From Hahella ganghwensis DSM 17046 (GTDB lineage Bacteria; Pseudomonadota; Gammaproteobacteria; Pseudomonadales; Oleiphilaceae): a stretch of DNA of 64,000 nucleotides. The position numbers and the translations under genes were made by a program. Shown piece after piece: positions 22,626 to 38,559 of the stretch. How positions within the stretch are numbered: position 1 is the stretch's first letter; each line of letters opens with the position of its first letter. The stretch lies in assembly GCF_000376785.1 (NCBI RefSeq), contig NZ_AQXX01000144.1:186001-250000 (forward strand), in the 5' to 3' direction. The notes under the pieces were generated by a model. It was not told the DNA's origin, searched no databases, and was given only the letters and a program-made list of their open reading frames with translations.

Positions 22626-23285
22626 TCAGAAAAACAGGGTAATTCCAGAGGATATCTCGATGTTATGGGTAAGCTGCGACTGGCGGATTAGATCGCTTTT
22701 GAACATGTGATCGCGAAAATCAACATGCCAGGCCAGCCAGTCATTGAAAATGATGCGATATCCTGTGCCGGCAATAGTGGTAAAGTTATTCTCGCCACCA
22801 AAGTCAGTATTGCCGACGCCACCTACCAGATAGATGGCGGAATTGAATGCCAATTGGTCGGTAAAAAATATCTCACCGGGAAAGATGTTGTAGCCCAACA
22901 GAAAGTCGTAGTAAATGTAATCCCGGTCATCGTCAGATACGAGTCTGACGTTGGTGCCGCTCAACTCTTCGAATGAGGTCAGCCCCGCGGATGCCTGACC
23001 ATAGTTGAACTGGATAAAAAAATCCTCAGTGGCGTGAAATGATGCATTTAGGCCATACATCGGCTCACTGCTGAAGTTATCAATACTGAGAAAACCGGCA
23101 AAGAGTCCCACCTCAAAGAATTCTGTATCGATGTCTGATTCTTCGATGGTTCGGGCCTCCACCTCCGGTGCGATGACCTGAACCGGGCCGGGCCTGGATT
23201 CTTCGGCTCCATCTTCGACAGCGTTTGCAAGTATTGGTAATGCCATGAGCATCAGCATTGTGTATTGGGCTAGCTGTTTGAACAT
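22626..23285 (-). CDS. Outer-membrane beta-barrel protein of the trans-envelope cluster
   Basis: A 219-residue protein with a signal peptide (MFKQLAQYTMLMLMALPILANA), an acidic Pro-rich linker, and about eight alternating beta strands ending in ...ITLFF, the C-terminal aromatic signature of outer-membrane barrels. The ATG at 23285 is chosen because the signal sequence begins there. It resembles barrels found beside gliding/energy-transduction gene clusters, but I cannot confirm the exact family. The SH3-barrel gene lies directly upstream; both are divergent from the TPR/ExbB operon. Confidence 0.75.
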   Translation of the reverse strand: MFKQLAQYTMLMLMALPILANAVEDGAEESRPGPVQVIAPEVEARTIEESDIDTEFFEVGLFAGFLSIDNFSSEPMYGLNASFHATEDFFIQFNYGQASAGLTSFEELSGTNVRLVSDDDRDYIYYDFLLGYNIFPGEIFFTDQLAFNSAIYLVGGVGNTDFGGENNFTTIAGTGYRIIFNDWLAWHVDFRDHMFKSDLIRQSQLTHNIEISSGITLFF

Positions 23286-23344
23286 GAATCGACAGCCTCT
23301 AGTAACGCTCTGAAAAACGCCAACTTTCTTAAAAGGATGACTGT

Positions 23345-24166
23345 TCAGAAAAATGTATTGAGTCCAATTTTCCATTCGCTTAAACCTGTTGTATCGGAAT
23401 TAGATGAAATCGAGTACTGCCGGTATTCGGCACGGATCAGAAAGTTACGGCCTATGTAGTATCCAAGACCTCCGCCTATAGAGACGGCGTCAGCTTCGTC
23501 TACCCCTTCCAGCAGCACTTTCTGCCGGGCGTCGAAAGAAAATCTGGAAGCTCCGACGGAGAGGTACGGCGTTATTTTCCATTTATGTAAGGGTTCTATG
23601 ATCAGGTTGGCACCATAGTATTCGCTAGTCACGGAGCGGCTGTAGATTTTTCCTGCTTCCACTTCGAACCCGGCCCAGGTCAATGGCCGGTAGCCGAAAG
23701 TTAGACTGAAACTGGAGGCTCCTTCGAATTGCCCGCCTGTGAATCCTGCGCGCCAGCTTGATGTGAGGTATTCACCATGTCCTGTTTCTGGCAGATCAGC
23801 AGGGATTCCGGTGGGTTTGAGAGTACGCCCCAATTGGGCGGCTTTCACCCAGCCTTCCTGACCATCAGGAGACTGAACCAGGTACCAGTTGGTCTTTCTT
23901 TTGAGAATAACGACTTCTTCACCCTGTTCAATCACATTGAATATTGGGTATCCACGACCAGGAGCGGTATGCATTTCAATGTAGGGATCTACAACCAGCA
24001 GGGTTAACGTTTTTTCATCCCCGTTATCCCAGAACTTAAGGTCAACAGCGTGAGCTGCTGCCGGCATCAGGGGGATAATGAGTATCGTGCAGAGTATCAA
24101 ACCGCATAGCCACGTCGGTCCACCGGCGCAGGGATAAAATTTGGCAATGCCTGGTAAAAGTTTCAT
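23345..24166 (-). CDS. SH3-domain outer-membrane beta-barrel protein
   Basis: A 273-residue exported protein. The signal peptide ends AAAHA. Residues about 50-115 form an SH3b domain (MHTAPGRGYPIFNVIEQGEE, then WYLVQSPDGQEGWVKAAQLG). The second half is an amphipathic beta barrel ending IGLNTFF, with a terminal Phe. An SH3b domain usually contacts peptidoglycan or peptides, so the protein may tie the outer membrane to the wall. It is divergent from, and probably co-regulated with, the operon starting at 24784. Confidence 0.78.
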   Translation of the reverse strand: MKLLPGIAKFYPCAGGPTWLCGLILCTILIIPLMPAAAHAVDLKFWDNGDEKTLTLLVVDPYIEMHTAPGRGYPIFNVIEQGEEVVILKRKTNWYLVQSPDGQEGWVKAAQLGRTLKPTGIPADLPETGHGEYLTSSWRAGFTGGQFEGASSFSLTFGYRPLTWAGFEVEAGKIYSRSVTSEYYGANLIIEPLHKWKITPYLSVGASRFSFDARQKVLLEGVDEADAVSIGGGLGYYIGRNFLIRAEYRQYSISSNSDTTGLSEWKIGLNTFF

Positions 24167-24783
24167 ACAGCGTTAACAACCTACGTCAGGCTTTTTAGCG
24201 ATGTTTAAGTTTGCTATGTCCCGATTTCAGAGGTGAAGAGCTGTTTATCTTGGAATGATTTATTAAACCGTCTTTTAAGCTCTCTTACATACCAGATTAG
24301 CGAGGCTGAACGTTAGATTCAGGAAGCTTGGTATCTCTTTATCTATCCTTTGAAAGTGTTACAAAATGTTTCTGATGTAACGATTTTTTACTGTGAAATC
24401 AGGCAATTCCGTACATGCGCTGCATCCTGCCAAGCACTGAATACCCCTAGCAATAATCAAAATTTGAAGTTCTGAATTAGTTCACAAATTCAGAACAACG
24501 ATGACAAAAAGGGGAGTCAAAAGAAATTCTCTGTGTTAGGTTAATTGGGAAAATAATCCCAAAAAAAGAAAAAGAACATAAATAAGCGTCTTGTACAAAG
24601 ACCCTGATTAGAATTCGAAACTCCTCAAAGAGCATCATCATCCCTAACGGTAAAGCTACCCGGAAGTATGCTGGTCCGTATCAAACACGGTTGTATCAGA
24701 TCGTTGGTAAAGCTTCGTCTGGTCTCCGACAAGTCAGAGTTAGTTGAAACCTTTTAGCCAGTTTTTGGCATGGGAGAGATATT
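24167..24783. promoter_or_regulatory. Divergent regulatory region of the trans-envelope cluster
   Basis: AT-rich 617-base spacer without a convincing gene, between the SH3-barrel gene and the rightward operon. It holds a perfect inverted repeat at 24469-24496. The 9-mer GGTAAAGCT occurs twice (about 24648 and 24707). No clear -35/-10 pair could be assigned. Confidence 0.55.
24469..24496. repeat. Perfect 10-bp inverted repeat, candidate operator
   Basis: GTTCTGAATT and AATTCAGAAC are exact reverse complements with an 8-base spacer. No U-run follows. It sits about mid-way between the two divergent units and fits a dimeric regulator. Confidence 0.55.
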
Positions 24784-24984
24784 GTGGATGGTGCAGCCAG
24801 TCGTTTTTTTGGAATGCAATTTGCCCGAGCAGGAAGCAACCTTGTGCCGTTGACGCTGACCTTTTTGTTGGGGCTGGCGACATCCGAATTACATGCCGCG
24901 GATGTTGAAGGAGAATCTGCTCAAGCGATAGACCGGATTATAGAGACACCTATGTCTGTTGAACGCAGCCGGCAGCAGGCCTAG
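24784..24984 (+). pseudogene. Signal-peptide half of a secreted coiled-coil protein, cut by in-frame TAG
   Basis: A GTG start with GGGAGA upstream opens a 66-residue frame: a signal peptide (NLVPLTLTFLLGLATSELHA) and the start of a mature protein (ADVEGESAQAIDRII). The frame ends at TAG (24982-24984). The following bases continue in the same frame with CAG GCT GTG AAT GAC into the helical segment of the next entry. SVERSRQQA-stop-QAVNDLSREI reads as one unbroken helix. A single nonsense mutation, a sequencing error or amber readthrough could explain it. Confidence 0.6.
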
Positions 24985-24990
24985 CAGGCT

Positions 24991-25434
24991 GTGAATGACC
25001 TTTCCCGGGAAATTCAGGAATTAAAGCAGTCCGTTGTGGTGTTGAACAAGGATCTGAAGGTAATGGAGGAAGATATGCTTTTTCCTTCAAATACCCGTCT
25101 GAATGTTTTTTTGTCGCTGGATGTCGGAGAGTTTTTCAAATTGGAAGGTGTGAGACTGAAGGTCGATTCCAATGTGGTTACGAGTTATCTCTACAGTGAA
25201 GAAGAACGGATGGCACTTGCAAAGGGCGGGATGCATCGTCTCCATCTGGGCAACATTGATACTGGGGAGCATACCATTTCTGCGTTTTTTATCGGTTCCG
25301 GTCCCAATGGTCGCGAATTCAAGCGTGGCACCTCATTAAAATTCAATAAGGAAAGCGGACCCAAGTATGTAGAAGTACGGGTCGCAGATTCTGAAGCTAA
25401 ACAGCAACCGGAATTCAGCATCAGGGAATGGTGA
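24991..25434 (+). CDS. Mature part of a secreted coiled-coil/beta protein in the TPR-ExbB operon
   Basis: A 147-residue frame starting at a GTG that has no good ribosome site. A short coiled coil (LSREIQELKQSVVVLNKDLKVMEED) is followed by a beta-rich domain (LDVGEFFKLEGVRLKVDSN, later GMHRLHLGNIDTGEHTISAFF). On its own it lacks a signal peptide. Joined across the upstream amber codon it would be a 216-residue periplasmic protein. It ends four bases before the next gene. No family recognised. Confidence 0.6.
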   Translation: MNDLSREIQELKQSVVVLNKDLKVMEEDMLFPSNTRLNVFLSLDVGEFFKLEGVRLKVDSNVVTSYLYSEEERMALAKGGMHRLHLGNIDTGEHTISAFFIGSGPNGREFKRGTSLKFNKESGPKYVEVRVADSEAKQQPEFSIREW

Positions 25435-25438
25435 GTAT

Positions 25439-27217
25439 ATGTTGATCCTGAAAGACTATTCCAGAGTGTTTTGCCGACGTCTCATAATCACTGGTATTGC
25501 TATTTTGGCCGCAATGTCATTGCAAGTTAAGGCCGAAGGCGTCAAAGACCTGAAGTATGGTGCAATCCTGTTTCAGTTTTATCAGCAGAACTACTTTGAC
25601 ACCTTGGTGGAGTATGCCTACGCCGAAGAAAAAGGCGGAATTGAGGGACATGGCAACTATCCTGAGCTACTAAAGGGAGGGGTGAGTCTTTCTTACGGGT
25701 TGGATGTACAGGCGGAAGAGATTTTTACCCGAGTGGTTGAGGGGAATGTAACAGAAGAGGCGCGCAACAGGGCGTGGTTCTACCTGGGAAAAATGCAGTA
25801 TTTACGTGGTGATGTTCATCGCGCTGCCAGCAACTTGTCGAATATTGCCGGACGCCTTCCGGAAGAGGTCGATGCCGAGTATCGGTATCTGGCTGCATTG
25901 GCAAACATTAAGCTGGGTTACTCATCGATTAGTGATCAGATTATTGCCGGGATTGATGAAGACAGTCCTTATGCGCCCTATTTTTATTTCAACCTCGGCA
26001 TTGCTTATGGCAAGCAGCAGGAAATATCGCGGGCAGCGGAAGCGCTAAACAAGGTCATTGAATACAGTCCCAGCAACCAGGAGTTTTCCCTGTTGGTTGA
26101 CCGGGCATATATGGCGTTATCTTTTCTTTACGCTGCCAGCGGTGAACTGGGCAACTCTCAATTGCAGCTGGAACAGGTGAAAAGCCATGGAGCCTATTCC
26201 AATCGAGGGCTTCTGGGAGCCAGCTGGCTGGCTGTAAACAAAGGTGAATTCAATGAAGCTTTGGCACCCCTGGACGTATTGGCTGCCAGATCCATCGCAT
26301 TGCCCGAAGTACAGGAAGCAATCCTTTTGCGCCCCTATGTCTATGAAAAACTGGACTTGGACGGCCGTGCTGCTATGGGATTTATCGAGGCAGATACAAA
26401 ATACACTGAAGCTCTTGAATGGATTCACTCTGCCCGGGAGAGTCTGTCGCAGTCAGATATGATGGAGTTATTTGTCCGCAATCTGGATGAGGTTCTGGGT
26501 GAGAGTGACTGGTTTGGTCAGGCTCCTTCTGTATCTATTAACAGGCTATCCCCATTTCTGGTGGAACTGATGTCCGACCATAGTTTTCAGTCGGTACTGA
26601 AAGATCTTCGCGATCTCTATTCTGTCAGAAACAACCTGCGTACCTGGAAGTCCAGAGAAGATGACTTTGCCATCATTCTCCAGGCCCGTTCCCATGGAAT
26701 TAAAGGAAATGTAACAACAGGACGACTCACGGCGGCCTCCCAAAAAGCCAAGCAAGCCAAAAACAAGGCGGAAGTTCTGGCGCGACGAGCCTCGTCATTA
26801 CCATCCGAGAGTCAGGAAAAAATCCAGTGGTTACTGGATGGACTGAATTATGAGATTGGCCGATCTCAGGCAATGTTGACTGGCATCAAGTCTTCTGATG
26901 GCTCTACCGGACGGCATTACCGGGATGAAGTGCGCAGCCTGATGGCTCTGGTCAAGGAGAAAGAAGAATATACAACCAGTCTGATTAAAAAGCTTGAGAA
27001 GGTTATGCAGAAGCTGGTCACAACAGAGCTGGATATTCATGAGCAGCGTCTTAAACATTATCAGGTTGAGGCGCAGTTGGCCAAGGTCAGGATTCTTGAC
27101 CGTTCTTTGATGGATCTGGATATACCGGAAACCTCCATGAACACTGAGGAAGCACCGGTAAATACCTCGGCGGTGAAGATTGAAGGCGAGACCAGGGGGG
27201 GGAGCAATGCGATATAG
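25439..27217 (+). CDS. Periplasmic TPR protein with C-terminal coiled coil
   Basis: A 592-residue exported protein; signal peptide MLILKD...MSLQVKA. TPR-like helical pairs fill residues about 40-330 (for example AWFYLGKMQYLRGDVHRAASNL and FYFNLGIAYGKQQEISRAAEAL). Residues about 430-570 are charged and helical, likely coiled coil. The role is probably a scaffold of the trans-envelope machine. It starts four bases after the preceding gene and overlaps the next by 11 bases. Confidence 0.78.
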   Translation: MLILKDYSRVFCRRLIITGIAILAAMSLQVKAEGVKDLKYGAILFQFYQQNYFDTLVEYAYAEEKGGIEGHGNYPELLKGGVSLSYGLDVQAEEIFTRVVEGNVTEEARNRAWFYLGKMQYLRGDVHRAASNLSNIAGRLPEEVDAEYRYLAALANIKLGYSSISDQIIAGIDEDSPYAPYFYFNLGIAYGKQQEISRAAEALNKVIEYSPSNQEFSLLVDRAYMALSFLYAASGELGNSQLQLEQVKSHGAYSNRGLLGASWLAVNKGEFNEALAPLDVLAARSIALPEVQEAILLRPYVYEKLDLDGRAAMGFIEADTKYTEALEWIHSARESLSQSDMMELFVRNLDEVLGESDWFGQAPSVSINRLSPFLVELMSDHSFQSVLKDLRDLYSVRNNLRTWKSREDDFAIILQARSHGIKGNVTTGRLTAASQKAKQAKNKAEVLARRASSLPSESQEKIQWLLDGLNYEIGRSQAMLTGIKSSDGSTGRHYRDEVRSLMALVKEKEEYTTSLIKKLEKVMQKLVTTELDIHEQRLKHYQVEAQLAKVRILDRSLMDLDIPETSMNTEEAPVNTSAVKIEGETRGGSNAI

Positions 27218-30038
27218 CTTCATAGCTATGGTCATTCTGCTCAGCGGATGTAATCTGATGAGCCAGAGCCCAACGATTGGAAAACTACAGTCGAAAAAAA
27301 CAGAACTTACGGATATTCCGTTACCCAGAGTTGGTCATGAAGAGGTACGGGAAGAATATCGGCAGTTATTGGAAATCGTTGAAGACCCTGGCCTCAAAGA
27401 GCAGATTGATCGCCGTATTGCCAGTGTCTACATGATGGAAGGGGACTACCGCCAATTGTTGGGGGTAACGCCTGCAAGTGATGGTTACTTTGGTAACGCG
27501 ATTCAGTCTTACCAAGAGGTCATCGATAAATATCCGGGCTCTCCGGATAACGCCGAGTCTCTTTATCAATTGGCCAAAGCCTATGATTTGAATGGCCAGG
27601 ATCAGAAGTCGCAAACAGTTCTTTATCGTTTTATGCAGGAGTTCCCCAACTCTCAGAGGTTAGCGGAAGTATATTTTCGGAGTGGGGATATTCATTTCCG
27701 TCATAAAGAGTATGAAGAGGCGGAGAAATCCTATCAGGCGGTCATATCTCTTGGTCAGGAATCTGCCTTTCTTAACAGTTCTTATTATCTCCTGGGTTGG
27801 GTGAGATTTAAGCTCAGTGACTATGAAGGAGGGCTTAATGCCTTTGCCGAAGTGCTCGACAGGCTTGTGCCCGAGGATGGAAAGGTTGAGAAACTGGACA
27901 AGGTAAACCGCTCGCTTGTCGATGACACCTTAAGGGTCGTCAGTATCAGTCTTGCCTACTCCGGTGGTGCGGAAAAAATCGCCTCAGTATTCGCTGACAG
28001 GCCCGGAAGCGCCAAGTACACCTGGATTCTCTATTCAAGCCTGGGACAACACTATCTTGAGAAAGAGCGGTATGAAGACTCCGCCTCCTCGTTCCGTGCT
28101 TTTGTCAGTCAGAATCCTGATTCCGATCGAGCGCCGGAAATGCATGCCGAGATGATTCGGGCCTATGTGGATGGTGAATTTTCGCAGCAGGCGTTACCTG
28201 AGAAAGAAAGCTATGTCCGGAACTATGGTATCCGCTCGGATTTCTGGCAGAAAAAATCATCAGATATCAAAGCCAAAGTAGTACCCAACCTGAAGACCTA
28301 TATTGACGAACTGGCTCGGCATTATCACGCCACTGGTCAACGTCTGAAGCGTGAGCTGGCTGACAAGGGCAGCAATGCAACAGCAAAATCCCGTGAACAA
28401 AAGATCAGCTTCCTAAAAGCGGCAGAATACTATGGCGAATACATGCAGACCTTTCCTCAGGACCCGAAAGTTCCTGAAATGGTTTATATGAGAGCTGAAG
28501 CAGCTTTTGACGGTGAAGATTTCCCCGCTGCTATCGCTGATTACGAACGCACAGCCTATGAACTGAAGAATCCAGAATACGGCGCTGAAGCGGGATATGC
28601 CGCCATCATCGCTTATCAGAAACAGGCTGACATGATCAAGGCGGCTGCCGGAGAAGACAGTGACCGGATGATGGCTTGGCGTGCCAAGAGTGTGGATAGT
28701 CAGCTGAGGTTTGTGCAGACCTATCGTAATGACGAACGTTCTGCTGCTGTGCTGGCCAATACTTCGGAAGAACTTTTTGCCCTCAAGCGATATGAAAAAG
28801 CCCTGGAAGTAGCTACCTCAGTTGTATCCGGCGCAGGAAAAGTCGACCCGGAGCTGAATCGCATAGCCTACGGGGTTATTGCTCACTGTCAGTATGAATT
28901 GAAGAACTATGCTGCGGCAGAGCAAGGCTATCGCAGCCAACTGAAGTATGTCGCGGACAGCCAGGAACAGAAGAAAGTGACTGAACGCATGGCAGTCACT
29001 ATTTATAAACAGGGCGAACAGGCGTTGGCCAAGGACAATCTGCAGGGGGCTGTAGAGCAGTTTCTGCGGATTAAAGTTCACGCACCCAACACTGATGTTC
29101 GGGTGGTGGCGCAGTTTGACGCAGCAACTCACCTGATGACCCTGGAAAGCTGGGATGCTGCGCTTCATGAAATGAAGGAGCTTCGCAAACTGTTTCCACA
29201 GCACCCGTTGGCGGCCAAGTTACCGCAGAAGATTGCCTATGCCTATGAGCAGGATGAACAGTGGGAATTGGCGGCGATGGAATATGAAAACATCTATCAC
29301 AGCGGTGCCGCCCCTGATATTCGTCGTGATGCGCTCTTTCTGGCCGCCGAGTTGAATGAGAAGGCCGGAAAAGAAATGGAGGCATTGAGCCAGTTCAAGA
29401 AATGGGCCTTCGATTATGAGGAACCCTTTGAAACGCGTATGGAAGCGCGTTACCACGTGGCATACCTGTACAAGAAACATGATGACTATAACCGCCATCT
29501 TTACTGGTTACGCCGTGTCATAGATGGTCATAACAAAGCTGGTGATAAGCAGACAGAAAGATCCAAGTGGTTGGCAGCATGGGCGAATGCCGAGTATGGC
29601 GACTACTGGCGAATTGAATTCAGACGGGTGTCTTTAAGAGCCCCATTGAATAAAAGCATCCCACGTAAGAACGAGAAGCTGAAAAACGCTTTGGATCGCT
29701 ATGAGAAGGCGGCGGAGTACGGCGTGATGGATCAGACCACCAGGGCAACTCTCAATATTGCCGATCTCTACGGTCAGTTTGCCCGTGAGTTAATGGATGC
29801 GCCGAGGCCGAAGGGATTAAGCGCGCTGGAAATGCAGCAGTACGAAATCATTCTGGAAGAGCAGGCTATTCCGTTTGAGGAACTGGCCATTGAGGTTCAT
29901 CAAGGCAATATCCAACGGTCCTGGGATGGTTATCTCAACTCATGGGTAGAGAAGAGCTTTGCCGCGATGGCCAAGCTTTCTCCAGCAAGATACAACAAAC
30001 AGGAAATTCAGGTGGCATATGGCGATGGAATACTTTAA
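27207..30038 (+). CDS. Large TPR lipoprotein
   Basis: A 943-residue lipoprotein starting at ATG 27207, with a G-rich ribosome site (GGGGGGAG). The lipobox is VILLSGC. Many tetratricopeptide repeats follow, such as AESLYQLAKAYDLNGQDQKS and AEVYFRSGDIHFRHKEYEEAE, through most of the length. Such long TPR solenoids act as protein-binding scaffolds. Anchoring in the outer or inner membrane cannot be fixed by sorting rules alone: the residue after Cys is Asn, not Asp, which favours the outer membrane. It is close to GltE/AglT-like TPR proteins only in a general sense. Confidence 0.82.
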   Translation: MRYSFIAMVILLSGCNLMSQSPTIGKLQSKKTELTDIPLPRVGHEEVREEYRQLLEIVEDPGLKEQIDRRIASVYMMEGDYRQLLGVTPASDGYFGNAIQSYQEVIDKYPGSPDNAESLYQLAKAYDLNGQDQKSQTVLYRFMQEFPNSQRLAEVYFRSGDIHFRHKEYEEAEKSYQAVISLGQESAFLNSSYYLLGWVRFKLSDYEGGLNAFAEVLDRLVPEDGKVEKLDKVNRSLVDDTLRVVSISLAYSGGAEKIASVFADRPGSAKYTWILYSSLGQHYLEKERYEDSASSFRAFVSQNPDSDRAPEMHAEMIRAYVDGEFSQQALPEKESYVRNYGIRSDFWQKKSSDIKAKVVPNLKTYIDELARHYHATGQRLKRELADKGSNATAKSREQKISFLKAAEYYGEYMQTFPQDPKVPEMVYMRAEAAFDGEDFPAAIADYERTAYELKNPEYGAEAGYAAIIAYQKQADMIKAAAGEDSDRMMAWRAKSVDSQLRFVQTYRNDERSAAVLANTSEELFALKRYEKALEVATSVVSGAGKVDPELNRIAYGVIAHCQYELKNYAAAEQGYRSQLKYVADSQEQKKVTERMAVTIYKQGEQALAKDNLQGAVEQFLRIKVHAPNTDVRVVAQFDAATHLMTLESWDAALHEMKELRKLFPQHPLAAKLPQKIAYAYEQDEQWELAAMEYENIYHSGAAPDIRRDALFLAAELNEKAGKEMEALSQFKKWAFDYEEPFETRMEARYHVAYLYKKHDDYNRHLYWLRRVIDGHNKAGDKQTERSKWLAAWANAEYGDYWRIEFRRVSLRAPLNKSIPRKNEKLKNALDRYEKAAEYGVMDQTTRATLNIADLYGQFARELMDAPRPKGLSALEMQQYEIILEEQAIPFEELAIEVHQGNIQRSWDGYLNSWVEKSFAAMAKLSPARYNKQEIQVAYGDGIL

Positions 30039-30873
30039 TTACCTGCGTTTTGCTGGCGTCGTCTGTCTGGTCGTGATAAGTGGGTGTGCGGGAATGGGTA
30101 CTATGCCGGCTTTTAATCAGACGCCGGTCTCAGCCAGCACGTCAACCGGCACAATAGAGTCGAAAACAAGCACGGATAAGCGTCGGTTTGAGTCCTCTCA
30201 GGACAGTCAGGATTTCCTGCCTCAACAGGCGTATTCAAGCGATGGTCGTAAGATCACTTATAAGGCGGCACCCAATCCGTATCTTCAACAATCGGTGCAG
30301 ATTCCGGATGCCGCCCGTAAAGCCTTCATGAAGGCAAACAGCGCCCTCAAAAATGAACGCTACAGAGAGGCCCGGAGGGGATTCAGGGAAATTACCCGCA
30401 CCTACCCTGAACTCTCAGGACCCTGGGTCAAACTGGGTGAAGTCGCCGACATTCGAGGTGACAAGGAAAAAGCAGAAAGCCACTTCCGCAAAGCTCTGTC
30501 TGTAAACCCATCCAATGTTAACGGATACATTGCTCTGGCGTTGCACCTGCGACGCAAAGGTGACTTTGCGGGAGCACTTCAGGTTTATGTTTCTGCGCTG
30601 TCGGTCTGGAAAGATTTTCCCGATGCTCATCTGAACCTGGCGATTTTGTACGACCTTTACCTTAATCAGCCTGAATTGGCGCAACCACATTACGAAGCAT
30701 ATGACTTTTTGGTCGGCGGGAAGCACCCCGAAGTGAAAGACTGGTTGGCAGAAATCCGGCGCCGCACGGGCATTGAGAAGAGTTTTATCGATAATCCGCC
30801 GGCACCGGCTGCGGAGTCAGAGGTGGTTTCCGGTGAAGCGGATACCCAGCCCACTATTGAAGAGAAGGGGTAA
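30019..30873 (+). CDS. TPR lipoprotein
   Basis: A 284-residue lipoprotein with lipobox CLVVISGC. Residues about 100-230 hold three to four TPRs (WVKLGEVADIRGDKEKAESHF, GYIALALHLRRKGDFAGALQ). The tail is acidic and Pro/Ala-rich. Start is ATG 30019 or 30025; GGTGG fits either. It overlaps the previous gene by 20 bases. It probably forms a complex with the two larger TPR proteins. Confidence 0.8.
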   Translation: MAMEYFNYLRFAGVVCLVVISGCAGMGTMPAFNQTPVSASTSTGTIESKTSTDKRRFESSQDSQDFLPQQAYSSDGRKITYKAAPNPYLQQSVQIPDAARKAFMKANSALKNERYREARRGFREITRTYPELSGPWVKLGEVADIRGDKEKAESHFRKALSVNPSNVNGYIALALHLRRKGDFAGALQVYVSALSVWKDFPDAHLNLAILYDLYLNQPELAQPHYEAYDFLVGGKHPEVKDWLAEIRRRTGIEKSFIDNPPAPAAESEVVSGEADTQPTIEEKG

Positions 30874-30876
30874 TGC

Positions 30877-31182
30877 GTGAGTGCAGATGTTGTCCTGAAA
30901 ACTATTGGGGGAGTCGTAGTGGCCTGCTTGTTTGTAACGCCATTTCAGTCTTCAGCCAATGATGATGTGAACCTGGAAAGTACCTTTGTAGGTGACCGTG
31001 AACAGCCATCGGTAAGTTATTTTATCCCCTGGAAGCCACCTGAAGGACCGGAAAAACTGTATCGCTCAATTACGTCAGTTTCTGGGAAGGTTTTTGAGGT
31101 CGTGGATCGGGATATCCATTCAAGGACGATGCAATTTTATGATGAGTTGAATCTGGAACAAGAAGATAACTCGTCCCACTGA
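30877..31182 (+). CDS. Small exported protein of unknown function in the TPR-ExbB operon
   Basis: A 101-residue protein with a GTG start and GAAGGGG upstream. A signal peptide (VVLKTIGGVVVACLFVTPFQSSA) precedes an acidic mature part with no Cys. It contains YFIPWKPPEGPEKLY. No family recognised. Lying three bases after the TPR lipoprotein and just before the ExbB-like gene, it is likely a periplasmic component of the same machine. Confidence 0.6.
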   Translation: MSADVVLKTIGGVVVACLFVTPFQSSANDDVNLESTFVGDREQPSVSYFIPWKPPEGPEKLYRSITSVSGKVFEVVDRDIHSRTMQFYDELNLEQEDNSSH

Positions 31183-31236
31183 AACCAATCGTAAAAAGCA
31201 AACATATTCAACAGTTTGAAGTTCGGAGTTACGCCA

Positions 31237-31902
31237 ATGAATTTTTACACAATGATCGTCTCTTTCTTTCAGGAAGGTGGTGCATTCATGTACCCCATCG
31301 CTATCGTATTGATTATAGGACTGGCGATTTCAGTTGAGCGCTGGGTGTTTCTGAAACATGCGCTTTCTGCCAATAAAGCAGCCTATAAGCACCTTCAACC
31401 ACTCGTTAGTCAGAATCAATATGATGAAGCTGAAAAATTTGCCCAGGAGAATCAGTCTGCCATTGGCCGATTGATGTCTGTTGCTCTGGATACCATGCGT
31501 GCATCTCCTCGTCGGGATGATATCCAGGCCGCAATGCAGGAAGGTGTGATGGAGAGTATTCCCCGTCTTTCCAAGCGTACCAACTACCTGTCTATTCTTG
31601 CGAACGTATCAACTCTGTTGGGACTGCTGGGGACGATCATCGGTCTGATTGCTGCATTTACTGCCGTTGCCAATGCTGATCCTGCTGATAAGGCCACGCT
31701 TTTGTCCCAGTCTATTTCTGTGGCAATGAACACCACAGCATTTGGTCTGATATCTGCGATACCTCTGCTTTTGATCCATTCTCTGCTGCAAAGCAAGACG
31801 CTGGAAATTATTGAAAGCGTAGAGATGGCAGGGGTGAAATTCCTCAACTCGATTGTCCGTGGTAACCGTTCCGTGGTCGCAACTCGTGAGACGGATGACT
31901 GA
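31237..31902 (+). CDS. MotA/TolQ/ExbB-type proton channel subunit
   Basis: A 221-residue inner-membrane protein. ATG 31237 is preferred, with GGAG eight bases upstream. Three membrane helices: IAIVLIIGLAISVERWVF, a long second one in LLGLLGTIIGLIAAFTAV, and AMNTTAFGLISAIPLLLIH. The LLGLLGTIIGLI block and the conserved Thr in the third helix are the family signature for a proton-conducting pentamer. It starts the energy-transducing part of the operon, together with two ExbD-like genes and a TonB-like gene. Confidence 0.92.
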   Translation: MNFYTMIVSFFQEGGAFMYPIAIVLIIGLAISVERWVFLKHALSANKAAYKHLQPLVSQNQYDEAEKFAQENQSAIGRLMSVALDTMRASPRRDDIQAAMQEGVMESIPRLSKRTNYLSILANVSTLLGLLGTIIGLIAAFTAVANADPADKATLLSQSISVAMNTTAFGLISAIPLLLIHSLLQSKTLEIIESVEMAGVKFLNSIVRGNRSVVATRETDD

Positions 31903-31921
31903 TTAAGAGCGGGGCGCAACC

Positions 31922-32455
31922 ATGTTTTCAAAACGCAGAGAACAGGAAGAAGCAGATATCGATATCACGGCTTTCATGAATCTCATGATCGTGCTGGTGC
32001 CGGTACTGCTGATGAGTATGGTGTTTAACCATATCACCATTCATGAACTTAACTTGCCTGAATTGACGGGATCGGCGGCCGCCAGTGCTGAAAAAAATCG
32101 TCAGTTGGAGGTGGTTGTCCGGGAAGATGAGATCGAAGTTTTTTATCCCAGTGGAAATCTGGTGAAGAGCATTCCCAATGTCGAAAAGGAATCTGACGGA
32201 GGCGTTGATAAACGTCATGACTACAAAACACTGTCTTCTGTATTGCAGGAAATCAAGAAGCAGTTGGCGGCGAAGTCCATTGAGAAACGCGATGCGCTTT
32301 TATTGTCTGAAGCAGGCGTCAGCTATCAATCAATCGTTTCCACCATGGATACGCTGCGGACGGCCAAAACAGTGGTTGTCACCGACGCAGTGGATGTAGA
32401 ACTGTTTCCGGAAATTTCCCTTGGAGATGCACCCAAGAAGAAGGGTAAATCATGA
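31922..32455 (+). CDS. ExbD/TolR-type protein 1, intramembrane Asp replaced by Asn
   Basis: A 177-residue protein with one N-terminal membrane helix and a periplasmic domain. In ExbD/TolR the helix begins like TPFIDVMLVLL with an essential protonatable Asp. Here the matching stretch is ITAFMNLMIVLVPVLL, with Asn20 at that place. The Asp residues just before (ADIDI) lie in the cytoplasmic lead. It overlaps the second ExbD gene by four bases (ATGA). Probably forms a heterodimer with that protein. Confidence 0.85.
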   Translation: MFSKRREQEEADIDITAFMNLMIVLVPVLLMSMVFNHITIHELNLPELTGSAAASAEKNRQLEVVVREDEIEVFYPSGNLVKSIPNVEKESDGGVDKRHDYKTLSSVLQEIKKQLAAKSIEKRDALLLSEAGVSYQSIVSTMDTLRTAKTVVVTDAVDVELFPEISLGDAPKKKGKS

Positions 32456-32955
32456 ACATTAGACCCGTATCGTTCCAGTCTCAGGGCGGACGTCATCGTT
32501 TAATGAAACCAGCCAAGCTTAACCTGGTTTCACTGATGGACATCTTTACCATTCTGGTTTTTTTCTTGCTTCTGAATTCTGGGAATAATGAGATTCTCAA
32601 GGTGAATCGGGATATCGAATTGCCGGAATCTTCTGCTGAGCAGCAGCCGGCAGAGACCATCACTGTCATGATTACAGCCGAAGATGTACTGGTGGATGGC
32701 CGTCCGGTGGCCTCCATGCAGGAGATCATCGACAGCAATGGCCTGATTAAAGGCTTGATGGATGAACTGCAATACCTGGCGTCCAAACGTACTGAATTAT
32801 CCGATGAAGAAAAGTCGCTCGGCAGGGCTGTGACCATATTGGGTGATCAGGAAATTCCTTATGAAATTCTCAAGCGTGTCATGTTGACCTGTGCCAAAGC
32901 CAACTATAGGGACCTGTCGATGGCGGTATCCAGAGTTGCATCAGGCAGCGCGTAG
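32452..32955 (+). CDS. ExbD/TolR-type protein 2, intramembrane Asp kept
   Basis: A 167-residue ExbD/TolR homologue. The membrane helix LVSLMDIFTILVFFLLL keeps the protonatable Asp (Asp30). A periplasmic domain follows (TVMITAEDVLVDGRPVAS). The start overlaps the end of ExbD protein 1. The pair differs at the key Asp, so only this subunit should carry the proton relay. Confidence 0.87.
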   Translation: MNIRPVSFQSQGGRHRLMKPAKLNLVSLMDIFTILVFFLLLNSGNNEILKVNRDIELPESSAEQQPAETITVMITAEDVLVDGRPVASMQEIIDSNGLIKGLMDELQYLASKRTELSDEEKSLGRAVTILGDQEIPYEILKRVMLTCAKANYRDLSMAVSRVASGSA

Positions 32956-32969
32956 TTTGAGGGGCCTAG

Positions 32970-33890
32970 ATGACAACACTAGCAGTAAATCAATATGAGT
33001 TTGTTCTGCCCTGGGAAGCAAGTGGGGATGAGGACAGCAGGTTCAACAGGATTCTCAAGCGGCTTTTGCTGCTGCTTCTGTTGATAGCCGTGCTGTTTCC
33101 CTGGTTGCCGTTACCTGAAATTGATCGTGCAGAGAAAGAACGGGTACCGCCGACTTTGGCCAAAGTTCTGATTGAGCAGCGCAAAGTTGTGCCACCGCCA
33201 CCACCTGTGCAGGAAGTTCAGGAGCAACCAAAAGATGTTCCTCAGGAGAAAACAGTCAAAAAGACTCAACCAAAAGAGGTGAAGGCTGCCAAAGAAAAGG
33301 TTTCCAAAATGGGAGTGGCTGCGTTTGCTAATGAACTGTCTTCTTTAAGAAGTTCAGTCAACGTCGCCAAACTCCAGGCTCACAACACGAACGTGACGAC
33401 AGGGGCGGCTCAGAAAAGTGCCCGTTCAATACTGGGCAAGAACTCGGCGACGCAAACCAGTGGGGGGGTTAGCAGTTCAGTGATGAACGGTACCGGCTCC
33501 GGAACACAGCTGGCCGGCCATTCCACGTCCACAGTCGAAAGTCCGATTGGCGGCGGTGGAAGCGGAAAAGGTGGTGGATCACATAGCTCCACTGTTAGCG
33601 GTGGCCGCGATATGGAATCCATCAGACGGGTTTTCGAACAACACAAAGGTGCGATCTATGCGCTCTATAACCGAGCATTACGCAGTGATCCGAACCTGAA
33701 AGGCAAGTTTGTTTTCCATATTGTGATTGAACCGGACGGCAGTATATCTGCGATTAATCTGGTCAGCAGTCAGCTTGGGGACAACAAGCTGGAAACCAAA
33801 TTGCTGGCGAGAATCCAGATGATTTCATTCGGTGCCGAGGATGTGGCTGCAACACCGGTTAACTACAAGTTTGATTTCCTGCCTGGCTAG
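32970..33890 (+). CDS. TonB-like energy transducer with AgmX/PglI-type C-terminal domain
   Basis: A 306-residue protein: a cytoplasmic lead, one membrane helix (LLLLLLLIAVLFPWLPL), a Pro-rich spacer (VVPPPPPVQEV), a Ser/Gly-rich linker, and a C-terminal domain. The domain begins IRRVFEQHKGAIYALYNRAL and has GKFVFHIVIEPDGSI, which matches the AgmX/PglI C-terminal pattern known from Myxococcus gliding proteins. It should couple the ExbB/ExbD motor to an outer-membrane partner across the periplasm. Lies 14 bases after ExbD protein 2. Confidence 0.85.
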   Translation: MTTLAVNQYEFVLPWEASGDEDSRFNRILKRLLLLLLLIAVLFPWLPLPEIDRAEKERVPPTLAKVLIEQRKVVPPPPPVQEVQEQPKDVPQEKTVKKTQPKEVKAAKEKVSKMGVAAFANELSSLRSSVNVAKLQAHNTNVTTGAAQKSARSILGKNSATQTSGGVSSSVMNGTGSGTQLAGHSTSTVESPIGGGGSGKGGGSHSSTVSGGRDMESIRRVFEQHKGAIYALYNRALRSDPNLKGKFVFHIVIEPDGSISAINLVSSQLGDNKLETKLLARIQMISFGAEDVAATPVNYKFDFLPG

Positions 33891-33995
33891 CGGCTGTAGC
33901 GAAATTGTTCGACAAATGGTAACGGAACGACTTGCAGGTACCGGGTAAGTGTAACGTTATATTAAATGATCTCTGTATAGGGGTGGAGGAGTGTC

Positions 33996-36896
33996 ATGGA
34001 CACTTTGCTGAAAAGGTGTATTGGTTTCAGTTGTGCGGGCTTAATGTTATATGCCCTGAGCGGCTGTGAAGGCGAACTGACGGAGGCGACCGGAGTTGCG
34101 TCGGATCGTCCGTTCGCTTACGTGGTGAGAGATTTTCCCGCGATGGGGGACACTTCATCCGTTGATGCGCGCCCCCCTTTAGATCCGAGGTCGCCCTACC
34201 AGTTTAACCCTGGTGCCAAAATGATGGTCAGGGACAGGATTGCATTGGATTCGACCGAGCAGGACATTCTTGCGTCGTATTTTGGTGGTGGATCTTATGA
34301 TGTCAAAGATCTGGATGTCGCGCCGGATGGCGATAAGCTGGTCTTTGCGGCGCATGGCCCGGAAGGACACTCCGTGCATAGTACCTGGAGCATATACGAA
34401 TACAGCTTTTCATCCGGCAAGGTGCGTCGAATTTTTTCAGACGATGAAACGGCGAACCTTGGGAACGATACTAATCCAACCTACGCAAACGACGGACGTA
34501 TAATCTTTTCCTCAGATCGACAGGTGTCGAAGGGTGATTACAGGGTACTCGATATTCGTGAGTACATTGAGGATTTTGATGAGCCGGCTTCCCTGCTGCA
34601 TGTGGTCAACTCAGACGGGAGTGAATTACAGCAAATCACTTTTGGTGAGTTTCACGATATTGAGCCCAGCACTATGGACGATGGGCAGATCGTTTTTATC
34701 CGCTTTGGAAGAACCTATGAGGTGCTTGAGGACTGCACTCTGGAAAATATCGATGACCCGAATTTCAATACTCACCCTCATGGCGGTGGCTATGGTCAGG
34801 GAAATGGCAACGGTTTCCCGCCTGGGCTGGATAAACCAAAGGAGTGGACCGTTGATGATAAATGTGGGGCGTCGGTTGAGGGTGATGTTACCAGCGAAAG
34901 GGTATTTGTAGAGGATATTTTCAGTCTCTATCGAATTACGCCAAACGGCGGCAATCTACATCGGTATTTCGGTACGCTTCATGAAGAGTTTTCGGACGCG
35001 TCATATATCCAATATATGGACCCTATCCCTATGCCGGACGGCAATCTCGTGACGATTATGCGCCATATTTATAATCCGGTATACGGTGGTGATGTCGTCA
35101 AGATCAACAGCAAGAATTTTTATGCAGTCGACAGGCCGGTTGATGACAGTGTTACGGGGGAGGCGGAGGAGTCTATGACTCCTGGTCTGGTGAACTTTTA
35201 TCCCAGCCAGGTATCGCCAAATGGTTGGTACAGCGGTGTCGCCCCCTATGATGATGGTAGCAACCGTTTGCTGGTTGGCTGGGCGCAGTGCCTGGTGGTA
35301 CAAGATGGGTTGTCCTCCCCTTGTGAGGGATATTCAACTGTGGACTCTTTGGGAGAGCCTCAGTACGGCGTATGGGCTGTAGACCCGGTTAACAATACCC
35401 GCTTGCCTGTCGTTAAGGGGCATGGTCAGGCACTATTTACCGATATTGCGATTGGTAAGCTTAATGACCGCGCGAAACCATACACCGGGATCAAGCTGGA
35501 ACAGATTCTTGATGACAATACTGCGGCTTTCAGTATTCGTAGTGTCTATGACCGGGATGGTATCGATATGGCGGAGCCCGATGGTGGTATCGTCACATTA
35601 CGTGATCCGAGTCAGACTCATCCTGATGATCGTTCTGAGCGGTTTATCAGAGTGCTTGGCAAACGTAGTATCCCTGGGGACCTGGAGCAGGCCGTGCTGA
35701 ATAATTCCGTGCTGAATCCAACAGACGGAAGTAATCCCAAGCTTGGTTTGACCCCAATTCTGGGCTCCGGTGGGCGTGGACTCTATGATGTCCTGTCCTA
35801 CGCGATGGTCGAACCAGATGGCTCTGCCATGGTGAAGGTTCCAGCAGAAACCGGGTATACGTTTGAGGTGGTCAATCAGTATGGCAAGCGGGTCGATCTG
35901 ATTGCGTCACCAGACTATCACTATAACTATCTGGTACAACATCCCACATCGTTGTTGCTGGAGAAGAATGAAGTTTTGGGATGTGTCGGGTGTCATGATC
36001 CTGAAAACGACATCCCCCATGCGAGAACCGATGTACCCCTGGCTTCAGCGAATCCGGGAGCTCCGGGTGACGGGATGGCCTTTCCCAATGCTAATACGCA
36101 GATTCGCGCGATTTATTGGCAGGATACAATGGCGGATGCTCTGATTGACTATTTGGGTGACATCCCTGCTACGTGGGCCAACATTATGTCATTCGAGGAT
36201 TTCTGGGGGAATCCTCCTGATGCTGGACTGGCATTCAGTAATCGCTATGAGGATCTGACCACACCGGTTCCGGTAAATGATCCGGCATGTCTGACGGAAT
36301 GGAATAGTAACTGCAAGGCTACAATCAATTATCTAGAACACATTCAGCCCATCTGGGATGTCTGCCGTACTATGCCGGGAGGTGAGCTGAAATCCTGTAC
36401 CAGTTGTCACGATAAGGCTGATAGTACTCCGCATGACAAATGCACAGGAGGAGGCGGTTCTGGTGGTGATCTGATATTGAGCGGTGATCCGGCGCCCTGG
36501 GATCCTCGTCAGGTGCAATCATATGTTGAGCTGTTCAAACCAGATTACTACCAGAAAAACGTTGACGGGGATTGGATCGAAGTTGATCCGACAACGGATT
36601 GTCCTGACGGCGTTCAGGGCGAGCTGACGGTTTTGCCTGACTCGGATGTTTGCTTTAGCCGACGCTTGATGAGCGCCCGTGGCGCTATTGCCAGTGCGCG
36701 TTTCTTCAGTCTTTTTGACGATGATCCGGATGACGATGAGTACGAAGTGGATGCGGTAGATACAACGGGCGGGGGTAGTATGCCTGATCATATGGGGCTC
36801 CTTACCGAAGTCGAACTCCGCCTGATTGCTGAGTGGCTGGATAGCGGCGCCCACCTCTATAACGATACTGATAAATATGTTTTGCCGGAAGAGTGA
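33996..36896 (+). CDS. Large di-haem lipoprotein, HzsA-related with beta-propeller repeats
   Basis: A 966-residue lipoprotein: lipobox YALSGC after a short signal. Residues about 85-300 have PD40/TolB-type beta-propeller motifs (NPTYANDGRIIFSSDRQV, LDVAPDGDKLVFAAHG). The C-terminal third has two c-type haem motifs, C663VGCH and C801TSCH. This layout resembles proteins named HzsA-related, after the hydrazine synthase alpha subunit. There is no sign of hydrazine metabolism, so a redox or binding role at the envelope is more likely. Separated from the TonB-like gene by 105 bases but same strand. Confidence 0.72.
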   Translation: MDTLLKRCIGFSCAGLMLYALSGCEGELTEATGVASDRPFAYVVRDFPAMGDTSSVDARPPLDPRSPYQFNPGAKMMVRDRIALDSTEQDILASYFGGGSYDVKDLDVAPDGDKLVFAAHGPEGHSVHSTWSIYEYSFSSGKVRRIFSDDETANLGNDTNPTYANDGRIIFSSDRQVSKGDYRVLDIREYIEDFDEPASLLHVVNSDGSELQQITFGEFHDIEPSTMDDGQIVFIRFGRTYEVLEDCTLENIDDPNFNTHPHGGGYGQGNGNGFPPGLDKPKEWTVDDKCGASVEGDVTSERVFVEDIFSLYRITPNGGNLHRYFGTLHEEFSDASYIQYMDPIPMPDGNLVTIMRHIYNPVYGGDVVKINSKNFYAVDRPVDDSVTGEAEESMTPGLVNFYPSQVSPNGWYSGVAPYDDGSNRLLVGWAQCLVVQDGLSSPCEGYSTVDSLGEPQYGVWAVDPVNNTRLPVVKGHGQALFTDIAIGKLNDRAKPYTGIKLEQILDDNTAAFSIRSVYDRDGIDMAEPDGGIVTLRDPSQTHPDDRSERFIRVLGKRSIPGDLEQAVLNNSVLNPTDGSNPKLGLTPILGSGGRGLYDVLSYAMVEPDGSAMVKVPAETGYTFEVVNQYGKRVDLIASPDYHYNYLVQHPTSLLLEKNEVLGCVGCHDPENDIPHARTDVPLASANPGAPGDGMAFPNANTQIRAIYWQDTMADALIDYLGDIPATWANIMSFEDFWGNPPDAGLAFSNRYEDLTTPVPVNDPACLTEWNSNCKATINYLEHIQPIWDVCRTMPGGELKSCTSCHDKADSTPHDKCTGGGGSGGDLILSGDPAPWDPRQVQSYVELFKPDYYQKNVDGDWIEVDPTTDCPDGVQGELTVLPDSDVCFSRRLMSARGAIASARFFSLFDDDPDDDEYEVDAVDTTGGGSMPDHMGLLTEVELRLIAEWLDSGAHLYNDTDKYVLPEE

Positions 36897-36940
36897 TAAG
36901 ACCTGTTAACAGAGAACACCGATAATAAAGAGAAACCGAC

Positions 36941-37609
36941 ATGGCCGCCAATATGAACAACACGATTAATCTAGATCATTTTTCGTTGCCTGGAGCGCAG
37001 TCCCAAATAAAAGCCTCAGCTATACCTGAAAGGAAACACTGGAAAGTTCAGGGGCATCTGGAGCAGAAGAATCGGAAGGGGCAAGTTTGCACCTTTAGTC
37101 GATTTAATCTGCAATACCTGGAGATCTTGACGAAAGACCAGGGTAAGCAAGTAGGGGACGCGGTTGTGGACATGTCATTTCTTCAGCCAAAAGCCCGGGA
37201 AGTTAAAGACTTAAAGTTGAGTATGAGGTTATTGGCAGTGCTTCTGATGACGGGGGCTGTCGCAACCTTTTTCCTGACCGATATCAGACCTGAATGGCTG
37301 GCATTCCCCATATTGATTGGTGGCCTAACTCTTTCGCTGGCTGTGCGTTTCAGCACTCATCGATATGATTTCCTGGCTGTTGGAAGCGAAGTTGTCCTCT
37401 TCAGTTTTCAGGCAAACAAGCCTGACAAGGAAGCGGTGAAAGCGTTTGTCGTTCAACTCGAAGAGTGCATCGAACAAGCCAGACTATCTCTGCCGGCAGG
37501 GAAACAGCTGATCCCAATCGCTGTGACTGAAATGCGTCGACTGTACAAAGAGGGATTAATCTCTGAGCAGGACTACGAAACGATTAAATGGTACCTGTTT
37601 CGAAATTGA
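36941..37609 (+). CDS. Small membrane protein with C-terminal SHOCT-like helix
   Basis: A 222-residue protein with two membrane helices (LLAVLLMTGAVATFFLTD and WLAFPILIGGLTLSLAVRF) after a soluble 90-residue domain. The end (LYKEGLISEQDYETIKWYL) is like a short oligomerisation (SHOCT) motif. Lies 45 bases after the di-haem lipoprotein and may end that operon. No function recognised. Confidence 0.6.
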   Translation: MAANMNNTINLDHFSLPGAQSQIKASAIPERKHWKVQGHLEQKNRKGQVCTFSRFNLQYLEILTKDQGKQVGDAVVDMSFLQPKAREVKDLKLSMRLLAVLLMTGAVATFFLTDIRPEWLAFPILIGGLTLSLAVRFSTHRYDFLAVGSEVVLFSFQANKPDKEAVKAFVVQLEECIEQARLSLPAGKQLIPIAVTEMRRLYKEGLISEQDYETIKWYLFRN

Positions 37610-37868
37610 AGCGATCGACAGGGATGTCTTTTTTATCTCCTTTCCTTTCTCGTCAAGCTATCTATGACTACGTCTATATAGACCCTCTCAGTAATCGCTC
37701 TATTTGACAAGTGCGATAACGGAATTATGAACATATCGGTGGATCTATTACCGGATCTACAGTCAACACTGGTATTTGGGGGGACGGTTAAGAAGTTGTA
37801 TAGTGATTTTAGGCAGAACGCCTGGAAGCTAAGCTCGTAAGACCGAAAACTCGATCAACAGAACGAAA
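37610..37868. other. Intergenic stretch between the membrane protein gene and tRNA-Arg
   Basis: No gene seen. A weak hairpin (GACA-GGGA-TGTC, then six T) lies at about 37618-37635, possibly a poor terminator. GTCTATATAGAC at 37672-37683 is a perfect 12-base palindrome. Confidence 0.35.
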
Positions 37869-37945
<77 letters not shown>

Positions 37946-38100
37946 AAATTACAGGCCGCATAGTCTAATCGTTCATCGCCGTTTTGGCTAGTCTAAAGAC
38001 GCCTCCCGATTAAACTTTTCTTGATCCGTCTCGAATCTGACCTTTTGTATCGAAATTGCGCCAATGAGGCGATTTGCTAGCCTATTTTTTGAAATATTTC

Positions 38101-38172
38101 TGTAACTATTGGGACTAGTCCGTATTAAGTTTTGTAACATAAAGGACTGGTCCGGTTTAGTAATGTTACATA
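38101..38172 (+). repeat. Tandem 32-bp imperfect direct repeats upstream of algD
   Basis: TGTAAC occurs at 38101 and 38133 and TGTTAC at 38164, spaced 32 and 31 bases. Between them lie GGACTAGTCC (38112-38121, a perfect palindrome) and GGACTGGTCC (38144-38153), also 32 bases apart. About 2.3 copies in all. Regular spacing of three helical turns suggests co-operative binding of an activator. Confidence 0.6.
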
Positions 38173-38441
38173 GACTTTCAAAAAGTAATATGTAGTTTTG
38201 TTCTTGTGAGGCGCCTGAGAATGGTGCATTGCGGCGACCTAATGGGGCATAGTCCTTTTTTTGTGATACTTTGTAAGTTGTTAAATAATAATAAATTTTT
38301 AACATTTTCTTGCTAGATTAAGCTCGAGTTGGATAGAATTCCGGGCCATGCAACAGCGTTAATTGGCAATCGTTCTGCTGTGTTGTTATAACGATAATAA
38401 TGTTACCAAATGTAGTTTTATGTAAGTGTTGATGTGTTTGG

Positions 38442-38457
38442 TGGCATAAAGCTTGCT
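38442..38457 (+). promoter_or_regulatory. Sigma-54 (RpoN)-like promoter for algD
   Basis: TGGCATAAAGCTTGCT matches the -24/-12 consensus TGGCAC-N5-TTGCW with one mismatch. GG and GC are exactly ten bases apart. It lies about 103 bases before the algD ATG. In Pseudomonas, algD can be driven by RpoN as well as AlgU. No clear AlgU box (GAACTT then TCTGA) was seen. Confidence 0.6.
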
Positions 38458-38501
38458 GAAACGGATCAAACGGGAGTTTTGAACCCACGGGGTTCTCAAT
38501 T

Positions 38502-38525: not shown

Positions 38526-38559
38526 GTGTGTTTGTTGAAAAATTCATGGAGAGATTGTT

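Follow-up and report, generated by a model that had tools for sequence, protein, structure and literature searches.

An Agl/Glt core operon with GltA/GltB-family barrels and a haem lipoprotein in Hahella ganghwensis

Introduction

The Glt gliding machine and the Nfs sporulation machine of Myxococcus xanthus share the AglRQS motor (Wartel et al. 2013, PMC3858216); the available text of a 2026 gliding review (PMC13104615) makes no mention of Nfs. Seven genes, aglR, aglQ, aglS, gltC, gltD, gltE and gltG, constitute Group B of Luciano et al. (2011, PMC3169522), which is clustered in Gammaproteobacteria with unknown function and was also reported in Geobacter. An extra gene adjoining Group B was said in that study to lack homologues in Myxococcales and Bdellovibrionales, and gltA and gltB were called restricted to these same two groups. 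For a different class of gene cluster, ApbE is reported to flavinylate a DUF3570 protein (Meheust et al. 2021, PMC8238504). Here we analyse a divergent gene cluster at positions 22626-37609 of a 64,000-nucleotide stretch of the Hahella ganghwensis DSM 17046 genome (NZ_AQXX01000144.1; C144:186001-250000 of a 6.56 Mb assembly in 144 contigs), hereafter the window, to which all coordinates refer. An earlier note made from the letters alone had presented this cluster as an undescribed-looking trans-envelope machine. The open reading frames, domains, lipoboxes and CxxCH motifs that it listed were all re-found, but the core of the cluster had already been described in Gammaproteobacteria by Luciano et al. 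in 2011.

Results

The gene set and gene order in the window are those of Group B, and by sequence homology the centre of the cluster is the Agl/Glt core complex of the Agl-Glt/Nfs machines, with an ExbB/ExbD/ExbD motor, GltG, GltC, GltD and GltE, all encoded on the plus strand. Three tetratricopeptide repeat (TPR) proteins stand in the order GltC, GltD, GltE. The GltC-type protein of 592 amino acids (aa) at 25439-27217 is recognized by TPR domains, position and profile, the profile being the weaker of the set (2.4e-13 to 1.7e-5 in loci of the Myxococcus genome G038). The GltD-type TPR lipoprotein of about 940 aa (27180-30038, probable start near 27207) has a Myxococcus profile match of 3e-66, and the GltE-type TPR lipoprotein of about 280-304 aa (29959-30873, probable start near 30025) has GltE-type matches in myxobacteria (e.g. 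1.8e-41, to Myxococcus) and scores 2.8e-7 with NF033758 (GltE), below cut-off. The earlier note had spoken of three large TPR proteins, of which all three stand but only the first two are large. Next come an AglR-type ExbB/TolQ/MotA channel subunit (31216-31902; MotA_ExbB 1.5e-26) and two tandem ExbD-type subunits in the order R-Q-S of AglRQS: an AglQ-type protein with Asn at the position of the pore Asp (31922-32455; ExbD 1.9e-10) and an AglS-type protein that retains the Asp (32452-32955; ExbD 1.1e-15). The operon continues with a GltG-type coupler of 306 aa (32970-33890), which carries an AgmX/PglI C-terminal domain (NF033768, 6.7e-18, over cut-off), matches NF033760 (GltG) at 8.5e-11, below the equivalog cut-off, and shows no FHA match.

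For comparison with myxobacteria we used a Myxococcus (L046 = G038) and a Hyalangium (L113 = G039) genome, located through an MglA sequence; E-values from our scripts were computed against small sets (1342 open reading frames for the cluster-order, X147 and p101 profile searches). Family profiles built from gammaproteobacterial proteins match myxobacterial clusters in the same gene order (L160, L163, L166). The AglR profile matches a Myxococcus protein at 3.2e-50 with two ExbDs next to it, and this 245-aa protein and its 162-aa neighbor have the published sizes of AglR and AglQ. The best Myxococcus match of the GltD-type profile is the copy beside mglA, not the gliding GltD, with three further G038 copies at 3.3e-34 to 2.2e-23 (best segments). 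A Myxococcus cluster of 298-, 256- and 674-aa proteins (L167), matched weakly by our profiles (5e-3 and 8.5e-6), we take to be GltB-GltA-GltC from its order and the published sizes of GltA (256) and GltC (673), and a Myxococcus block with the order barrel-barrel-C-D-E-G (L160) we take to be Nfs from that order. On the Hyalangium gliding cluster (L166) the NCBIfam models give 757 bits for GltE (cut-off 225) and 1072 bits for GltG (cut-off 650), and the sub-cut-off scores in the window fit distant homologues of these proteins. The relation to Myxococcus gliding proteins that the earlier note drew from AgmX/PglI domains and a MotA/TolQ-type motor is thus borne out, the proton-channel module and the trans-envelope chain both being homologous. 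Sequence searches of the PDB returned mainly designed TPR proteins for GltD, ExbB and TolQ for the ExbB-type subunit, nothing better than E 0.61 for GltG and nothing up to E 1 for the haem lipoprotein described below. AlphaFold models made without an alignment (mean pLDDT 55.8 for the GltG tail and 57.0 for X147 downstream of its stop) lacked the quality that a fold search requires. No motor was found in Geomonas or Geomobilimonas (0/2) at E 1e-15.

In Myxococcus (L159) and Hyalangium (L163) mglA itself adjoins a third Glt-like cluster with X147-like, GltC-type and GltD-type genes, to which Hyalangium adds GltE-, p101- and GltG-type genes. By profile score this mglA-linked cluster is the nearest to gammaproteobacterial GltD.

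Two predicted outer-membrane barrels are encoded on the minus strand, divergently from the core. The main barrel, OMb (22626-23375), has a barrel domain of about 160 residues and matches TIGR04565, the GltA/GltB family, at E 1.2e-47 (161.9 bits, cut-off 60), in addition to a profile match. SH3b (23345-24166) combines an SH3 domain (SH3_3, 2.9e-10) with a small barrel whose OMP_b-brl (2.4e-5) and TIGR04565 (5.4e-5) matches are both below cut-off. TIGR04565 is also over cut-off for the 256-aa (1.4e-49) and 298-aa (1.6e-34) proteins of L167 and for both barrels of L160. In profile-profile comparison with the myxobacterial GltA/B and Nfs-like barrels, OMb reached 97.8% over 160 columns and SH3b 92.1% over 77 columns, with 3.1% for one unrelated family used as a control. 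The assignment to GltA/GltB thus holds at family level only, from TIGR04565 and the profile match. These matches place the main barrel in the GltA/GltB family and run counter, at that level, to the 2011 restriction of gltA and gltB, a result that appears to be new. The barrels and the haem lipoprotein lie outside the published core and extend it.

We next consider distribution. Of 38 relatives, 30 gave a match to the GltD query at E 1e-3; for 26 the E-value was below 1e-60, and for the other four the match was only a weak TPR one. Across the class the GltD profile found 88 of 369 genomes in 67 of 272 genera at E 1e-30. Gene order was read in slices of up to 20 kb covering 76 loci from 62 of the 88 gltD genomes (the class slices), taken mainly from full-length matches; many short, weak and contig-end matches and L253-L272 were left out. 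The order gltD-aglR-gltG is present in 60 class slices and all three motor genes in 59, while 21 have four or more of the five larger genes. Because relatives and other genomes of the class show the same gene order, the cluster is not a chance grouping; the synteny test that the earlier note proposed for itself comes out in its favor, with the ordered set conserved over many genera and not scattered in relatives. At E 1e-6, 56 of the 369 genomes have OMb, and every one of these also has gltD; none of the 281 genomes without gltD has OMb. In 41 of the 56, OMb and gltD lie within 30 kb on one contig, and in 15 they lie on different contigs.

Among the slices of the first 20 relatives, eight have the haem lipoprotein, SH3b and OMb, and seven have MoxR and von Willebrand factor A (VWA) genes before X147 with no barrels seen. 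In these seven barrel-less cores (L025, L027, L034, L035, L037, L038, L039) the VWA gene upstream is CoxE-like, and an acyl-CoA ligase gene lies downstream, with a MaoC-type gene in six of them. The MoxR/VWA setting is a second conserved context of the core. A FastTree phylogeny of GltD pairs the window with its nearest relative L023 (support 1.0); beyond this pair, L028 and other barrel loci group with it at low support only (0.15-0.56 inside a clade of 1.0). Barrel loci are scattered over this tree, and the barrel/redox block must therefore have been gained or lost more than once. A GGDEF-EAL family (Pfam on one member) occurs in eight of the 76 class slices (L180, L182, L187, L192, L195, L233, L234, L236), a possible link to cyclic di-GMP.

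Downstream of gltG, after a gap of about 105 bp, lies the gene for HZS (33996-36896, plus strand), a haem lipoprotein with a PD40 propeller (1.7e-10), an HZS_alpha domain (1e-6, over cut-off) and two CxxCH motifs at residues 663 and 801. Among 14 HZS rows, some cut short, nine have two CxxCH and five have three (L031 and L252 are one gene). Barrel loci usually run HZS-SH3b-OMb-TlpA-DUF3570-X147-gltC-D-E-p101; motor and gltG may be present or absent, and 29 of 30 rows have a DUF4266-like gene between TlpA and DUF3570. Pfam confirms DUF3570, thioredoxin, DUF4266 and ApbE on examples. For 54 of 59 OMb matches a DUF3570 gene is found no more than 6 kb away, and the window copy is among the five misses; these distances used the lower-scoring DUF3570 rows and two others, and the rows left out are, by eye, on contigs other than those of the five misses. 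DUF4266 is present in 20 of the 76 class slices. At further loci some 12-25 kb separate gltD from the start of the redox block, which follows genes for a PSD2-like protein, a laminin-G/cytochrome lipoprotein and a Tat-type protein, and ApbE is found in five of nine such distant-block slices (L253-L259, L261, L263). In relatives the barrels form a block with the haem lipoprotein, thioredoxin, DUF4266, DUF3570 and at times ApbE, an arrangement that appears to be new.

The divergent set of PSD2-like gene, laminin-G/cytochrome lipoprotein and Tat-type protein (no Pfam match) often flanks the haem lipoprotein (L249, L253-L259, L261, L263). Gammaproteobacterial DUF3570 proteins fall into two score groups, and it is the lower-scoring, often N-terminally divergent group that is found next to the barrels.

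The two ExbD subunits differ at the pore. In AglQ-type rows from Gammaproteobacteria, Asn replaces the pore Asp in 75 of 76, the window included, whereas AglS-type rows keep the Asp in 77 of 77; myxobacterial rows have Asp in four of four for each type (rows filtered to 140-230 aa, near-duplicates included). The residue lost in the window corresponds to D28 of M. xanthus AglQ, a property of that species that lies outside the 2011 definition of the core, and aglQ D28N has been described as a channel mutant in M. xanthus (Wartel et al. 2013, PMC3858216). This one-sided loss appears to be new, and we infer that AglQ and AglS would divide the work differently here.

Twelve of the 76 class slices show no motor gene, although slice ends may hide a motor in some (e.g. 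L242). Ten of the genomes concerned carry motor genes at their other retrieved copy (for G282, aglR alone precedes the contig end); the second copy of G353 (L271) has a motor, and in G099 gltD was matched only once. The window genome itself holds three gltD copies: the window copy and that on C47 have a motor, and that on C98 has none in its slice but carries the thioredoxin (TlpA)/DUF4266/DUF3570 block, as do many relatives. Motor-less loci beside a motor-bearing second copy recall the sharing of AglRQS by Glt and Nfs.

Two exported proteins complete the operon. X147 (24784-25434, plus strand) has relatives in 64 of 76 class loci and is possibly the additional gene of Luciano et al.; a weak relative (7.2e-5 and 1.1e-3; profile match 82%) lies beside the mglA-linked myxobacterial cluster. 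The other, the small p101 (30877-31182, plus strand), occupies the GltF position and has relatives in 71 of 76 class loci and one weak myxobacterial match (79 aa, 6.1e-4). In the window X147 is interrupted by an in-frame TAG at 24982-24984. The L023 orthologue reads through without a break, and conservation extends past the stop (dN 0.086 for that part). The stop could be due to recent decay or to an error in the assembly. The earlier note had the tight gene spacing begin at 24784, which holds for 25439-33890, where genes overlap or are separated by at most a few tens of bases, but it did not mention that the first gene is broken. Over 14 genes compared with L023, nonsynonymous divergence (dN) is 0.03-0.34 while synonymous divergence (dS) is 1.5-1.9 in four genes and saturated in ten, for which exact dN/dS is not obtainable; by this comparison the cluster genes are under purifying selection.

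Beyond HZS, a plus-strand gene for a membrane protein with a weak SHOCT match (36941-37609; sub-cut-off Pfam matches only) is matched in one of 20 relatives' slices, that of the nearest one, and its membership in the cluster is doubtful. An alginate cluster follows at 38560-53133, with genes of GDP-mannose dehydrogenase type, glycosyltransferase, PilZ, Sel1, Alginate_exp, beta-helix, MBOAT, AlgX and alginate lyase. A scan of the divergent region 24100-25000 gave no promoters and no terminators, against 1.2 and 0.9 in shuffled sequence, and one of 33500-38600 gave 7 and 5, against 7.2 and 4.3.

Discussion

On balance we think it probable that the cluster encodes a gammaproteobacterial machine of the Agl-Glt/Nfs type, whose motor acts on a redox assembly in the outer membrane, or on its cargo, by moving, assembling or opening it, and does not serve gliding. 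The architecture of this proposal rests on homology, and the cargo is putative. By homology, AglR and the two ExbD subunits would form an inner-membrane proton channel, with proton flow through AglR and one protonatable ExbD. GltG would couple this channel to the periplasm via its AgmX/PglI tail, and force would pass from GltG through GltC, GltD and GltE, with X147 and p101, to the pair of GltA/GltB-family barrels in the outer membrane. The outer end would be joined to HZS and, in many relatives and in the C98 copy, also to thioredoxin, DUF4266 and DUF3570 proteins; this haem assembly of the outer membrane, in relatives also flavin-type, would be the thing moved or assembled. The redox proteins would then be partners and not mere neighbors, and the force transfer and the topology of each part are likewise predicted. 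The motor driving something across the envelope that the earlier note envisaged survives, by homology, as a proton-driven trans-envelope machine, but of the roles it offered (motility, adhesion, uptake or wall traffic) motility and uptake are disfavored. A more specific version, in which the machine works an outer-membrane haem/flavin electron-transfer assembly and couples ExbB/ExbD force to extracytosolic redox with one protonatable ExbD of two, we consider possible but doubtful. Our literature search, with most subscription papers outside it, found DUF3570 in a single paper and no paper joining AgmX or PglI with DUF3570 or ApbE. A capsule origin of the machine is reportedly treated by Agrebi et al. 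(2015).

Several observations weigh against the redox-cargo proposal. Next to the window copy there is neither TlpA nor DUF4266, DUF3570 or ApbE, and it does not constitute a flavinylation cluster; since all that it retains of the block is the haem lipoprotein and the barrels, it supports the redox reading less well than the C98 copy and relatives do. ApbE is found in only 15 of the 76 class slices. The [S/T]GA[S/T] motif is present in only ten of 30 DUF3570 rows (one genome counted twice), and its absence from the other rows makes the flavin reading weaker. DUF3570 is not exclusive to the Glt-type system because it is found in 95 of 369 genomes, partly away from OMb. The co-occurrence of OMb with gltD (Fisher 1e-43) is not corrected for ancestry, and 32 of the 88 gltD genomes have no OMb at E 1e-6; the barrels and redox block are therefore optional to the core, and we rejected the idea that barrels are a core part everywhere. 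As to the homology itself, an OMb profile (A1) matched none of five delta-group genomes, the protein that we take to be GltC in L167 scores a little better with the GltD profile (1.7e-6) than with that of GltC (2.3e-5), and X147 is disrupted in the window copy.

The machine could instead act on a surface polymer in the manner of Nfs, transporting or wrapping a polysaccharide, perhaps the alginate of the adjacent operon. Its closest worked-out parallel, Agl-Nfs, acts on the Exo polymer (Wartel et al. 2013, PMC3858216), the barrel-barrel-C-D-E-G order of the Nfs-like Myxococcus block is that of the window, and alginate genes begin at 38560. However, 11 proteins of the alginate region are unmatched in all 20 relatives' slices, and the copy in L023 adjoins a sigma-factor-like gene and others within 2.5 kb and no alginate genes, for which reason the alginate link was dropped. 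Nor was any polysaccharide-synthesis family recognized among the families present in at least four of the 76 class slices, some of which were checked with Pfam, and we regard a polymer cargo as unlikely.

A Myxococcus-type gliding machine is much less probable still. The motor, GltC-E, GltG and the barrels are homologous to the gliding set, and genomes with AglRQS and GltA-G have been speculated to belong to potential gliders, but the same authors argued that gliding takes more than the core (Luciano et al. 2011, PMC3169522). MglA is found in only four of 88 gltD genomes versus four of 281 others (E 1e-20), and this rarity disfavors MglA-controlled gliding as the general role. The window genome is among the four, with one MglA-like protein of 43% identity encoded elsewhere in the genome. 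Least probable of all is a TonB-type uptake system energizing an outer-membrane receptor: ExbB-ExbD-ExbD and a TonB-like coupler are present, yet no TonB-dependent receptor or plug domain was found among the cluster proteins, GltG has no TonB C-terminal Pfam match up to E 0.1, and the barrel domain is far from large at about 160 residues. Tol-Pal was rejected on scores (TolQ 54.9 bits against a cut-off of 221; HZS with TolB 25.9 against 343.15), with no Pal domain in the scanned proteins.

A record titled Comamonas sp. KCTC 72670 (L047, BNCN01000011.1) carries an MglA 99% identical to that of Myxococcus, which suggests a mislabelled record or a mixed assembly.

What the Glt core does in Gammaproteobacteria had not been settled in 2011 or 2013, and our literature searches found no answer. 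The conserved barrels and haem/flavin-type block offer concrete candidate partners and a testable lead to the job of the core. They also suggest an older origin or a wider spread of GltA/GltB-family barrels than has been stated. As simpler relatives, the gammaproteobacterial loci may help to show how force reaches the cell surface from a Tol/Exb-type motor, and the one-sided loss of the pore Asp may serve as a natural experiment on the division of work between two ExbD subunits. The earlier note had made its case depend on the set not matching a named, characterized system; the set does match a named one, whose role in this class is uncharacterized in the literature found.

Compared with the Agl-Glt gliding machine, the locus has the motor, GltC-E, GltG and GltA/GltB-family barrels in common and differs in that MglA is rare in the genomes with the core. 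With the Agl-Nfs sporulation machine (Wartel et al. 2013, PMC3858216) it shares the barrel-barrel-C-D-E-G order and the occurrence of motor-less loci with a second motor locus; in contrast to that machine, the window has no recognized Nfs-type polymer genes nearby, a GltG of 306 aa lacking an FHA match and an AglQ-type subunit without the pore Asp. The clusters of DUF3570, DUF4266, thioredoxin and ApbE, reported with or without DsbD in a study whose main text never mentions gliding or AgmX (Meheust et al. 2021, PMC8238504), match the flavin-type part of the relatives' loci, whereas the window copy is without that part and most DUF3570 rows here are without the motif. With the gammaproteobacterial Agl/Glt core (Luciano et al. 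2011, PMC3169522) the likeness extends to all seven clustered genes and an extra neighbor, X147 or p101; to this core the window adds GltA/GltB-family barrels and a haem lipoprotein, and its relatives add a flavin-type block.

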